Positions 22,326-64,000 of a stretch of 64,000 bases of DNA are shown here, in pieces (the stretch's first letter is position 1; the number at the start of each line of letters is the position of its first letter). The DNA lies in contig CAMAUZ010000039.1 of the NCBI GenBank assembly GCA_945861535.1, positions 1 through 64,000 on the forward strand. The letters are read 5' to 3'. A program made the position numbers and the translations under genes. The stretch is from Akkermansia muciniphila. GTDB taxonomy: Bacteria; Verrucomicrobiota; Verrucomicrobiia; Limisphaerales; BJHT01. Under the pieces are notes generated by a model. The model was not told where the DNA came from, did no database searches, and saw only the letters and a program-made list of their open reading frames with translations.

Positions 22326-22469
22326 AACTAACTCCTTCCTTGAGTCGCCCCGTGGTGGGGCCTTGTGAAACGGCATCCCTGCCGCCGACAGGATTTAATC
22401 GGAGGATCCTATCATTGCCTCCTGGGGTGATCAGGGGCCACCCCGCCCCGGTCTTGCGACCAATGGCTA

Positions 22470-22496
22470 AGATCGGCGAGGAAGGGAACTACTTGA
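22470..22496 (-). promoter_or_regulatory. Candidate sigma28 (FliA) promoter of the first flagellin gene
   Basis: On the minus strand TCAAGTAG and GCCGATCT are separated by exactly 11 bp, close to TAAAGTTT-N11-GCCGATAA. It lies about 145 bp upstream of the ATG. The second flagellin gene has a similar site at the same distance. Confidence 0.5.
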
Positions 22497-22761
22497 GTAG
22501 AATATTGCAACAGAGTAACAACGCTCGTTCGTAGAGCGTGATTCAATCGGAGCCGGAACACGCTGTCCCCAGCGTGACATTCCACTCATCAACGGACGGA
22601 CAATGCCTGCGATTGACATGGACCACCCCGTTGAGTTGAACGGACACCGCCCGGAAATGGTAGGTAGTGATCTCCCGCCCACGGAGCCGGAGGTAGAAAG
22701 CCGGCCGCTTCCGGGAGATAGAGATATACTCCATCCTATTCCGAAGAAATGGGGGAACGAT

Positions 22762-23221
22762 GGGCGCATCTCAGTCTTGTGCCGCCGATTCCCATCTCAT
22801 TAGCACCCGGCTGTAGCCGGGTGTCTGGGACGGCGAATCGACACAACCGCTTTAGCGGTTTCTTTGTCGGGTGGATGTGTCCGGCATCTCCGCCAAAGCC
22901 GTCAAAACGGCTGCCCAATTCTTCCGCCCGGCAACCCCCGGCTGAAGCCGGGTATGTGTTTAGCGCCAAAGGCGCGGCTCATACCAGCCTGGGGCAACGC
23001 CCCAGGTCAGATGCCAGCCAATGAATTCAGGGCTGAAAGCCCGTTCCATCTTCCTGCTGAAGGATGATCCGTTCCCGCGATGGACCGCGCTTTCAGCGCT
23101 CAAATAGTAAATGGCTCGCTTCCTGGGGCGTTGCCCCAGGCTGGAATAAATCCGCGCCTTTGGCGCTAAACAGATACGAAGCCGGGTGCTAAGCAGAAGT
23201 GCAGGAAACTGAGATGCGCCC
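22762..23221. mobile_element. Non-autonomous hairpin-array element with TIRs and perfect 9-bp target-site duplication
   Basis: Terminal inverted repeats: GGGCGCATCTCAGTCTTGTG from 22762, and the complement of GGGCGCATCTCAGTTTCCTG ending at 23221. GGGAACGAT directly flanks both ends (22753-22761 and 23222-23230), a perfect 9-bp target duplication. Inside are about ten small hairpins, e.g. ACCCGGCTGTAGCCGGGT, AACCGCTTTAGCGGTT, GCGCCAAAGGCGC, TGGGGCAACGCCCCA, and the inverted forms TGGGGCGTTGCCCCA and GCGCCTTTGGCGC near 23,125-23,170. No open reading frame of substance is present. It fills most of the 1-kb gap between the flagellin genes. Confidence 0.8.
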
Positions 23222-23281
23222 GGGAACGATTGACTGAATAGTCGGGAGGCAGCCGGCGCGGGAGGTCACAGAAATGCAAAG

Positions 23282-23309
23282 GCCGGACGGTGCTCCTGCG
23301 CCGTCCGGC
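23282..23309 (-). terminator. Probable terminator of the second flagellin gene
   Basis: GCCGGACGG (23282-23290) pairs with CCGTCCGGC (23301-23309). Reading the minus strand, the stem follows the flagellin stop by about 28 bp and is followed by CTTTGCATTTCT, a moderately U-rich tail. Confidence 0.6.
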
Positions 23310-23336
23310 TGCGTACCATCCGAGTGACACCAGGCT

Positions 23337-24140
23337 CTAACTGATGAGCCGGAGCGCCGCCTGCGGGCTGGCGTTTGCCTGGGCCAACATCGCGGTGCCT
23401 GCCTGTACCAGGATGTTATACTTGGCAAATCGAGTGCTCTCCTCCGCGACATCGACATCCTTGATGCGACTGTTGGCCGCGGCGAGGTTGTCGCCCAGCA
23501 CGCCGAGTTGGTCGTAGGTGCTGTTGAGGCGGGAGACATTGGCCCCGACCGTGGCGCGGTCGGTGGCAAGCTGGGTGATGGCGTTCTTGACGTTGGTCAG
23601 CGCCGTGGCGGCGGTGGTGGTCGTCGAGATGGTCGAGCTGGTGGCGGTGGTGTAGCTCGCCGCGCCGAGGTCCACGCCGGTCATGCTGAAGGAAGCGCCT
23701 TCCGAATCGATGCTGACATCGCGGGCGGCGCTGACAAACAGACTCACCCCGTTGAAATCCTTGGTCGCCGAGTTGGTGACAAAGGCGGCGAGGTTGGTGA
23801 ATTCCTTGTTGTAGAGCGCACGGTCCGCGTCGTTCTTGGTGATGTCCGCGGACATGACCGAGAGTTCGCTCATGCGGTCGAAGGCCTTGCCGACCTTCTG
23901 GAGGAAACCATCCTGTGTCTGGCTGAACGAGATGGCGTTGCCGACGTTGTTTTTGGCGGCCGTATTCCGGTTGGTCTGCGCATCCAAACGGGTGGAGACG
24001 GCCGAGCCGCCGACATCGTCGCCGACGGACGCGAGTTTGGAGCCTGAGGACAGGCGGGCGAGTGATTTCGCCAACATGCCAGAGGATTCGTTGAGGAGAC
24101 GGCTGCTTGTCAGGGCTTGGACGTTAGTATTGATTACCAT
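23337..24140 (-). CDS. Flagellin (second paralogue)
   Basis: The start MVINTNVQALTSSRLLNES at 24138-24140 is preceded by AAGGAGT at optimal spacing, giving 267 residues, the same length as the neighbouring flagellin. The D0/D1 regions are almost identical to it (LARLSSGSKLASVGDDVGGSAV; TRFAKYNILVQAGTAMLAQANASPQAALRLIS), and differences concentrate in the central segment (~140-190). The pair arose by duplication and could form a mixed filament. The 460-bp mobile element separates the two genes. Confidence 0.95.
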   Translation of the reverse strand: MVINTNVQALTSSRLLNESSGMLAKSLARLSSGSKLASVGDDVGGSAVSTRLDAQTNRNTAAKNNVGNAISFSQTQDGFLQKVGKAFDRMSELSVMSADITKNDADRALYNKEFTNLAAFVTNSATKDFNGVSLFVSAARDVSIDSEGASFSMTGVDLGAASYTTATSSTISTTTTAATALTNVKNAITQLATDRATVGANVSRLNSTYDQLGVLGDNLAAANSRIKDVDVAEESTRFAKYNILVQAGTAMLAQANASPQAALRLIS

Positions 24141-39506: not shown

Positions 39507-39816
39507 GTCCCGGAGGGACACCGCAGGAGATTAGCCGGGGGCAAGCCCGCGCCAGCGGGCGCGGCCCCCGGTTGCCACGCCGAACGGAGCATGCCCCAGC
39601 GGGGCATCGGAGAAGTTTTTGCCGTAGTCCGCCCCGCAACCTCGCAGCCAGCGCACGTCGCCTCGGGCAGATCGGGGCGCCGGCCATCACCCCGCATCCA
39701 GGGCCATTTCTTCGATGCCCCGCTGGGGCACGGAGCCACCCGGCACCGTTTCCGGGGGCGGCGTCCGCTGGCGCGGACTTGCCCCCGGCTAATCTCCTCC
39801 GGCGTCCCTCCGGGAC
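39507..39816. repeat. Nested palindrome 'GTCCCGGAGGGAC' family, copy 1
   Basis: Word order A-B-C ... C'-B'-A'. A: GTCCCGGAGGGAC; B: GCCGGGGGCAAG...GCCCCCGG; C: TGCCCCAGCGGGGCATCG. Mirror words follow in reverse order ending GTCCCTCCGGGAC at 39816. Other copies: 51,823-52,096 and 53,319-53,646. Confidence 0.9.
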
Positions 39817-39986
39817 GGGAACCGGGCGGCCACGCACTGCCCACGGGAAACCACCGGCGCGAGAATCGCGTTCCCGACTCGGTCGCTTGTGGCTTCGCCG
39901 CTCTGTGTTCATCGTGTCCCTGTGGTTCATCGGGAGCGGCCCGGCTGAATGGCTGCGGTTAGGCGCCGGCAACCAGCGCATCTCTC

Positions 39987-46162: not shown

Positions 46163-46440
46163 TGGCGCATCTCAGTTTCTTGCAACGATCAGTGCGCATT
46201 GGCTCAGTCCCGCAGGGACGACCGAAAATAGCCCAGCACTTCAGTGCTGGGTTGGTGGCCGGGGAACCGGAAAGTCCCGTCAGGGACGGAAGAGGCTCGA
46301 CGGCGCACGGATTCTTTCGTCCCTGACGGGACTTGGTTCGCTACCGCCGCGGACCCAGCACTGAAGTGCTGGGCTATTCTCTTTCGGCCGCTGGGCTGGC
46401 GCGGGGAACCAGGCCATCCACAATAGACTGAGATGCGCCC
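46163..46440. mobile_element. Hairpin-array element sharing the GGCGCATCTCAG termini, with degenerate 9-bp flanking repeat
   Basis: Left terminus TGGCGCATCTCAGTTTCTTG (46163), right terminus complement of GGGCGCATCTCAGTC (ends 46440). Flanks CTTGTGGCC (46154-46162) and CTTTTGGCT (46441-46449) match at 7 of 9. Hairpins: GTCCCGCAGGGAC, CCCAGCACTTCAGTGCTGGG (46232-46251), GTCCCGTCAGGGAC, GTCCCTGACGGGAC and CCCAGCACTGAAGTGCTGGG (46354-46373). Outside it lies an inverted pair of heptad arrays (46090-46136 and 46448-46492), the right one running into the stop codon of the ABC gene. This accounts for the 489-bp gap. Confidence 0.7.
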
Positions 46441-51639: not shown

Positions 51640-51822
51640 TGGAACTCACCTCGATATTCACGCAGCTTCGGGACATTACCAATCAGTGAACCTATTCGTG
51701 ACGGCGAGTCTTTGTCTTCTCTGGACCACAACTCCGTAAAATCCACGTGCGCCGCGAGGATTTTGCCGTTGCCCTGACCGTCGGCCGCCGGCCGAAGAAT
51801 GGTCGCCAACGCTTCGCTCTTC

Positions 51823-52096
51823 GTCCCGGAGGGACGCCGCAGGAAATTAGCCGGGGGTAAGTCCGCGCAGCGGGCGCGGCCCCCGGTTGCGCCGCCGAAC
51901 GGGCCATGCCCCAGCGGGGCATCGAAGAAGTTTTTGGTGGCGGCCTCCCCGCAGCATTCCCGCCACCCCTCGTCGCCTCGGGCCATTTTCTTCGATGCCC
52001 CGTTGGGGCACCGAGCCATGTGGCACGGTTTCCGGGGGCTGCGTCCGCCCGGGCGGACTTGCCCCCGGCTAATCTCCTCCGGCGTCCCTCCGGGAC
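51823..52096. repeat. Nested palindrome 'GTCCCGGAGGGAC' family, copy 2
   Basis: Same word order as copy 1 (39,507): GTCCCGGAGGGAC, GCCGGGGG..., TGCCCCAGCGGGGCATCG, then mirror words ending GTCCCTCCGGGAC at 52096. Upstream flank shares the 'CGCCGCGAGGATTTTGCCG' sequence with copy 1. Together with the 129-bp element it fills the 854-bp spacer between DUF2809 and the GDSL gene. Confidence 0.9.
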
Positions 52097-52276
52097 GGGG
52101 ACCGGGCGTTGCCGCGAGCGGCGCGGGCGCAGTGCGGCGGTCGTCAGAAACTTCCGCCGCTCCCGTGCCGCCCCGCACGCTGCGACCCGGACGGTCGCGC
52201 TCCGGTTTAGTTGCGGCCTCGCCGCTCTGTACCACAACTCTGCAAAACCCTCGCGCGCGCCGCGAGGATTTTTCCC

Positions 52277-53189: not shown

Positions 53190-53318
53190 GGTGCGGCGGT
53201 GGGCTTCGGTTTTTCGCTCTCAGAAGCGAGGTCGGCAGGAGCAAAACTCCCACGAAACCGGGCAACGATTGCTCACGCCGTTTCTTCTCTCGATCTGTCG
53301 AGTGAGGTGCCTTCACTC

Positions 53319-53646
53319 ATCCCGGAGGGATGCCGCAGGAAATTAGCCGGGGGCAAGAACGCGCCAGCGGACGCGGCCCCCGGTCGGGGTGGAAAATATT
53401 TTTGCCCCAGCGGGGCATCGAAGAACTCGGCCCTGAACCTCAAGAATTGATTGGAGCCGCGAGCCAACCATCCGAGCGTCGCGCCGGGTTTCGGTGCTCA
53501 TGGAATGATCCGTCCGCCCCGGAGGTGCGGGGGAGATTTCTCCGATGCCCCGCTGGGGCATGCTCCCATTTGCCCCGCCAACCGGGGGCTGCGTCCGCTG
53601 GCGCGGTCTTGCCCCCGGCTAATCTCCGGGGGCGTCCCTCCGGGAC
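53319..53646. repeat. Nested palindrome 'GTCCCGGAGGGAC' family, copy 3
   Basis: Starts with the variant ATCCCGGAGGGAT (53319-53331), contains TTGCCCCAGCGGGGCATCG and TCGATGCCCCGCTGGGGCA-like inner words, and ends GTCCCTCCGGGAC at 53646. The 722-bp gap between the GDSL and Calx-beta genes is made of this repeat and a heptad array; no gene is supported. Confidence 0.88.
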
Positions 53647-53840
53647 GAAAAACAAATCACCGTGCGGGATGCGCCCAAGCGCCAATGGCTGTTTTTGACC
53701 CGACACCGAAACGGAATGACCGCAAAGAACGCAAGGATCCCCGAGAGAAGCGAACACGGGTGCCTTTCACGCCTTTCGTGGTTCAACTCAACCACCGTTT
53801 CCAAGCCCGATCACCAAACCGCCCGGTCCGCCTCGCGCCG

Positions 53841-63808: not shown

Positions 63809-64000
63809 GGGCGCATCTCACTTCCCTGCAACCTTCGGCAGGCACGGGTGCCGCGCTCAAAAAAACCTGCGGCGCCAGGCGCGGGGGCGTGGTGGGGCAG
63901 GCATCCTTGCCTGCCAGTTCGGGCGGCATCCCTGCCGCCCGTTTCCATGCCCGAGCACCCCCACGGAACTGGGAACACGGGGCAGGGATGCCCCGCCAAC
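63809..64000. mobile_element. Left part of a GGGCGCATCTCA-terminus hairpin element, cut by the window end
   Basis: GGGCGCATCTCACTTCCCTG begins at 63809. Cargo hairpins follow: GGCAGGCATCCTTGCCTGCC, GGGCGGCATCCCTGCCGCCC and CACGGGGCAGGGATGCCCCG; the first two are the words used by the 57,019 element. The right terminus and any duplication lie beyond the window. Confidence 0.5.

Follow-up and report, generated by a model that had tools for sequence, protein, structure and literature searches.

The 460-base segment at 22762-23221 of the window (the whole stretch analyzed here, 64,000 nucleotides from an uncultured Verrucomicrobiota bacterium) is, as judged by comparison with the rest of the genome, a pair of nested miniature elements, with an inner element (B) lying inside a hairpin of an outer one (A). 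The segment separates two flagellin genes encoded on the minus strand and is probably a nest of gene-less elements in which A would be moved by an ISKra4 enzyme, B would be moved by an enzyme that is most likely IS66-like, and both carry a hairpin cargo of the type associated with Y1 (HUH) transposases of subclass 1.2. What can be seen directly in the DNA is that one element lies within the other, that both are flanked by duplications, that ISKra4 elements with matching ends exist, that three other A copies have empty sites, and that hairpins are associated with Y1 genes. The initial annotation described a single gene-free MITE with a body of about ten short perfect hairpins of differing sequence. 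No credible gene is indeed present within the 460 bp, and the hairpin array is real, with single-stranded DNA folding of the segment giving a z score of −13.4 relative to shuffled sequences (0/100 shuffles are as good). However, the middle 226 bp have ends and an 8-bp duplication of their own, as a second element, and the hairpins are not all different, most of them forming mirrored pairs, as units resembling those that flank Y1/HUH transposase genes.

The nesting is evident from two sets of copies. In a whole-genome comparison, query positions 10-201 and 426-469 recur elsewhere without the middle, and query positions 200-425 have more than 25 copies at ∼94% identity; because A copies thus exist without the middle and B copies stand alone, the two are separate elements, one within the other. 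Without B, A is ∼225 bp long and has ISKra4-family ends. B is 226 bp long (22952-23177), has the ends GTATGTGTTTAGCGCC and GTATCTGTTTAGCGCC, and is flanked by an 8-bp target duplication, GAAGCCGG, the left copy of which (22944-22951) is within the A hairpin, with the right copy at 23178-23185. When the target is restored, the insertion site of B in A is the hairpin CCCGGCTGAAGCCGGG.

Element A is itself bounded by the sequence GGGAACGAT at 22753-22761 and 23222-23230, which matches at 9/9 positions and is the perfect 9-bp target duplication that was originally proposed. Its ends had been described as inverted copies of each other, which holds for the first 14 bases, GGGCGCATCTCAGT, these being the same at both ends; over the full 21 nt, the left terminal inverted repeat (GGGCGCATCTCAGTCTTGTGC, plus strand, 22762-22782, an ISKra4-type end) and the right one (GGGCGCATCTCAGTTTCCTGC on the minus strand, 23201-23221) are imperfect, with 18/21 bases paired (86% complementary). 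The 14-mer occurs 151 times in the 7.9-Mb genome when up to one mismatch is allowed, versus a single occurrence of a reversed control, and among 23 closely spaced inverted pairs, the flanks match at ≥7/9 positions in 15 and at 9/9 in 5; with this excess over the control and flanking duplications in 15/23 pairs, the A ends are not due to chance. A genome-wide search for the termini together with their 9-bp flanks, as the initial annotation had proposed, thus recovers further elements with duplications, and a sister species (G001) lacks three of the other copies (L042, L051, and L031) at the orthologous sites, as seen in alignments that cross the junction. For the window element (22376-23337 compared with G001:C164), G001 has an extra flagellin gene at the element's position, and the flanks are not conserved. 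G001 also contains an ∼110- to 120-bp repeat in tandem arrays at many places (for example, C259:9228-9893), which matches flanks of L042 and L031.

The A ends are widespread, and what they enclose is varied. A 17-mer of the end is present in 24/58 genomes of the order, and the named genomes that match it are mostly Verrucomicrobiota MAGs. A-type ends surround several unrelated hairpin bodies, and a unit consisting of a hairpin with a CT[AG] foot, described in detail below, is present in some of these bodies but not in all. The window contains a second A element of 278 bp (46163-46440; flanks 7/9), which has the same ends as the 22762-23221 element and a body quite unlike it that includes an Acido-Lenti-1 unit at 46206-46251 (60 bits). 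At 63809-64000, another A-type end precedes a hairpin body of a third kind, which extends past the window edge, and L207 (G000:C18) contains two A elements that differ in body and are arranged end to end with ∼10 bp between them. A ends are combined with the TCTCATTAG body in G018 and G045 (L070 and L069) as well, with flanks of 8/9, and on this basis the ends and this body seem to travel as one unit.

Inverted ends are the cutting sites of DDE enzymes of the ISKra4 and IS66 types, whose activity produces short duplications. Four full-length UPF0236/ISKra4-type elements in the same order have GGGCGCA... ends together with perfect 9-bp duplications (L103, TTCACAAGC; L105, TTCACACTC; L108, TTTCAGGCC; and L147, CTTGGGGAG), which agrees well with the DDE-type transposition first suggested for the segment. 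Of these, L103, L105, and L108 score above the cut-off of the NCBIfam ISKra4 model, and L147 has GGGCGCATCTCAGATTTTCGGAAGGG at both ends. Two elements in other MAGs (L287 and L302, 1,473 bp each) have the ends GGGCGCATCTC[AG]GTTTCTTGCAGG and share at least 22 end bases with typical A copies; L287 scores 209.8 with the NCBIfam ISKra4 model (cut-off, 205) and L302 scores 173.7, which is below it, and as L287 begins at a contig end and L302 is without a duplication, neither counts as evidence for the duplication. An ISKra4-type gene fragment in L143 has its stop codon inside an exact A end. The 2,645-bp ISKra4 element L147 (G014:C35), one of the four with a perfect 9-bp duplication, also includes a DruA-domain gene at 276-1256 (PF14236, 116 bits); the domain is named after the Druantia defense system.

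A full-length transposase with termini matching those of A, which the initial annotation had suggested should be sought, is present in genomes of the same order, but the genome to which the window belongs has only a relic (C4:80231-80490). Searching this draft assembly, which is 96.6% complete, with the NCBIfam ISKra4 model recovered no intact gene, and Pfam PF06782 gave no matches in it. Because the assembly is a draft and MITEs can persist after their partner is lost, the missing intact partner does not exclude the ISKra4 family for A, which would be moved in trans by an ISKra4 enzyme. A resembles the ISKra4 family and its MITEs in having inverted ends that start with GGG, a 9-bp duplication, and ends that match full-length elements of the same order. 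It differs from ISKra4 MITEs in that its interior is a hairpin-pair element that is not derived from a transposase gene and in that the same ends hold several unrelated bodies.

Copies of B are also associated with target duplications, and among 33 of them, the 8-bp flanks match at 8/8 positions in 7 and at ≥6/8 in 19, compared to ∼1% for random sites. B favors palindromes, with a hairpin of at least 6 pairs at 7/17 distinct duplication-bearing sites versus 3.6% of control or random sites; copies sharing identical duplications were merged for this comparison, and hence L004 and L006 are left out. The enzyme that moves B would most likely be IS66-like, as suggested by one IS66 element (L460) with the ends GTATTTGATTACCGCC, in which 13/16 end bases are like those of B and the 8-bp repeat is offset by one base. 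IS66 ends in general were considered as a match for B and rejected, as the resolved ends, in L448 and L449, are GTAAGCG and differ from B, with L460 alone being similar. When a partner for B was sought in relatives by its end pattern, there were few matches outside the genus, and these appeared to be chance or unrelated sequence.

The hairpins within A are organized similarly to those at two loci with a Y1 gene. HUH Y1 enzymes act on single-stranded hairpins. In L394, from the same genus (G001), the Y1 gene lies between TCTCATTAG-[CACCCGGCTTTAGCCGGGTG] and [CACCCGGCTAAAGCCGGGTG]-CTAATGAGA, with the small hairpins AAACCGTTTCAACGGTTT and AAAACCGTTGAAACGGTTTT inside, and the arrangement at L339, from another family, is like that at L394. 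The A body is gene-less, and its feet, large hairpins, and small inner hairpins are ordered as at these loci. Its left, outward-facing end, which can be read as that of a Y1-type miniature element, has the foot TCTCATTAG and the large hairpin CACCCGGCTGTAGCCGGGTG (22795-22823, minus strand), which are common to the Y1-gene flanks in L394 and L339. This is followed by an inner pair of small hairpins, AACCGCTTTAGCGGTT (22845-22860), whose counterpart is the AAACCGTTTCAACGGTTT beside the L394 Y1 gene, and AGCCGTCAAAACGGCT (22897-22912). The right-end large hairpin, beginning with CCCGGCTGAAGCCGG (22937-22951, plus strand), is split by the B insertion and resumes at 23186, and it is followed by the right outward-facing foot, CTAAGCAGA (23189-23197, plus strand), which is CTAATGAGA in sister copies. 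Beyond the feet and hairpins, the A body and L394 have little sequence in common, A-type ends are absent from both of these Y1 loci, and the A-body units are without the outer small hairpin of the unit descriptor given below.

B also holds a mirrored pair, which is CTG-footed, with a left unit CCTGGGGCGTTGCCCCAGG-CTGGTATGAGCC-GCGCCTTTGGCGC (22963-23006, minus strand) and a right unit that mirrors it (23122-23166, plus strand); a similar unit (CCTGGGGCTTCGCCCCAGG-CTGGTATAGA-GGGCCTTCGGCCC) adjoins the Y1 gene of L331. Other hairpin pairs are present elsewhere in the window. An outward-facing pair of units at 39507-39817, CCGGGGGC...GCCCCCGG-CTAAT..-GTCCC TCC GGGAC, has the unit that is found beside the Y1 gene of L189 in the same genome, and there are L189-type hairpin-pair elements at 51822-52097 and 53318-53647.

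The association of such units with Y1 genes was evaluated at 78 Y1 (PF01797) loci, of which 58 code for proteins with the subclass 1.2 motif YI..Q..H[HQ], 6 code for other kinds, and 14 are without a recognizable ORF; the motif is thus present in 58/64 recognized Y1 proteins, with the subclass being assigned by motif and not by a tree. Units were scored within 450 bp of the Y1 gene by using the descriptor [large hairpin]-CT[AG]-spacer-[small hairpin], which is looser than the Rfam model. By this measure, a unit is present at 50/58 loci with the subclass 1.2 motif and absent from 8/58, with the descriptor having been written after the first loci were viewed, the CTG foot having been recognized on the combined set, and the loci being mutually related. 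Among the loci that were retrieved once the motif had been recognized, 27/31 have a unit, and if the CTA foot alone is considered, the count is 33/58. The density is 141 units in 155 kb of Y1 loci versus 5 in 121 kb of ISKra4 loci (some overlapping each other). Replacement of the foot with ten other trinucleotides gave 2 to 6 nearby units for nine of them and 9 for CGA, compared to 74 for CTA and 48 for CTG.

Of the 38 downstream same-strand units, 28 start 44 to 78 bp past the stop codon. Units are present on both sides of the gene in 33/58 loci and are mostly mirrored, and the 7-nt stems on the left and right have an identity of 0.98 within a locus (best pair) versus 0.64 between loci. The commonest foot is CTAAT, and the feet read TAG or CAG on the other strand. 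L187, L189, L190, and L318 score over the cut-off with Pfam PF01797/NCBIfam IS200, and these are Y1 genes with flanking units, not the gene-less window element. From these associations, we infer that the footed hairpins are recognized and moved by a subclass 1.2 Y1 enzyme. A plain ISKra4 MITE, in which the hairpins are inert filler or a favored landing target with no link to Y1, would accommodate the several unrelated bodies within A-type ends and the preference of B for palindromes (7/17 sites versus 3.6% of random sites), but it is improbable, as the arrangement of foot, large hairpin, and small inner hairpins in the A body is that of the Y1 loci L394 and L339 and the association of the unit with subclass 1.2 genes is far above that of the controls.

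In how it works, the hairpin/Y1 system is REP/REPIN-like, yet it fails two defining REP features. Similarly to REPINs and REP-RAYT systems (TnpA-REP, subclass 2), it has inverted hairpin pairs, a fixed foot, and many dispersed copies, some of which flank a low-copy Y1 gene. Unlike REP-RAYT, it has a CT[AG] foot located after the hairpin rather than GTAG/GGAG before it, proteins with subclass 1.2 motifs, and a second small hairpin in most units. REP feet are GTAG or GGAG, and motifs of the YI..NP type are found in the subclasses that Quentin et al. (2018; PMC6006769) associate with REPs. At the feet of the units described here, the GTAG/GGAG tetranucleotide is not conserved, and a subclass 2 (YI..NP) transposase does not fit as the partner of the units, as 58/64 of the proteins have YI..Q..H[HQ]. 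It is thus very unlikely that the hairpins represent the classical REPs associated with RAYT transposases, with a GTAG foot and a subclass 2 enzyme: the mirrored pairs are REPIN-like and the same genome has one classical system (L195, with GTAG-CTCGACATTCCAATGTCGAG repeats), but the feet are CTA or CTG and the proteins have DHVH, WQ, and YI..Q..HH motifs and not YI..NP. L195 (G000:C118) itself has a classical RAYT-like gene (ORF 1060-1806) with seven surrounding CTCGACATTCCAATGTCGAG-type repeats, several of which have a GTAG foot, and the genome therefore holds two kinds of Y1/hairpin system.

The Y1 proteins associated with the CT[AG] units are like those of TnpA-Y1 subclass 1.2, with DH[VIL]H, WQ, and YI..Q..HH motifs and a length of ∼150 aa. 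This subclass was described as having DH[IV]H, WQ, and YIKNQKEHH motifs, as being low copy and found mainly in Cyanobacteria and Bacteroidetes, and as being without REPs and generally without terminal structures (Quentin et al. 2018; PMC6006769), whereas most of the loci here do have flanking hairpin structures.

Some of the units correspond to a catalogued RNA family. The left B unit matches Acido-Lenti-1 (RF01687) with 37.3 bits (cut-off, 37), the right B unit scores 29.2 bits, which is below the cut-off, and the match in the second A body is the one with 60 bits. RF01687 is classed as an sRNA in Rfam, Weinberg et al. (2010; PMC2864571) regarded Acido-Lenti-1 as probably an RNA and not cis-regulatory, and a 2026 paper (PMC13298647) notes that little is known of its function and suggests that it regulates nearby proteases in Tannerella. 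These reports and the strong folding of the segment favor the hairpins being structured RNA, with Acido-Lenti-1 being a genuine small RNA or an element of mRNA ends that is merely transposon borne. We give this explanation a low probability, as the units are inverted, outward-facing copies at fixed places on both sides of Y1 genes (including the 44- to 78-bp spacing past the stop codon in 28/38 downstream units), each Y1 gene has its own hairpin sequence on both flanks, and there are dozens of unit copies per genome.

RF01687 is matched in 41/58 genomes of the order, some of which have at least 86 matches each. At many loci, it adjoins the Y1 gene, often on the minus strand upstream and on the plus strand downstream, and it has no match in 68 kb surrounding ISKra4 genes from these genomes. 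The left B unit and the second A body fit a model that is annotated as an sRNA, but their context here indicates a DNA end of a Y1-type mobile element, and the catalogued Acido-Lenti-1 "RNA" appears to be one version of the Y1-type DNA hairpin unit. A literature search, in which few subscription papers were covered, found no link between Acido-Lenti-1 and a transposase.

As a mechanism for the nest of elements, we propose that A (∼225 bp, with ISKra4-type ends) was inserted by an ISKra4 DDE transposase acting in trans, which would have created the 9-bp duplication, and that B (226 bp, with GTATSTGTTTAGCGCC ends), moved by a different DDE transposase, would have jumped into the A hairpin with formation of the 8-bp duplication. 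The cargo of both would be an outward-footed hairpin pair, a gene-less derivative of a TnpA-Y1 subclass 1.2-type element, and the hairpins would be single-stranded DNA recognition sites of the Y1 enzyme, with a REP-like role. Because A ends surround several different bodies, DDE ends may have enclosed Y1-type elements repeatedly.

A broader and more tentative proposal, which we put at somewhat short of an even chance, is that two orphans with no earlier link, the TnpA-Y1 subclass 1.2 proteins and the "RNA" Acido-Lenti-1, are parts of one mobile-DNA system of Verrucomicrobiota, and probably of other phyla, in which gene-less hairpin elements have been repeatedly captured between unrelated DDE ends (ISKra4 and IS66-like) and could be moved by two mechanistically different enzyme classes. 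Such a system would give a testable job to two orphans, the Rfam family RF01687 and a transposase subclass that was described without associated hairpins. If it is correct, genomic Acido-Lenti-1 matches would need to be treated as mobile DNA in annotations, and conclusions on RNA regulation drawn from them would need to be reexamined. Hairpin elements that ride between DDE-type ends would also account for many of the hairpin-rich intergenic repeats in these genomes.
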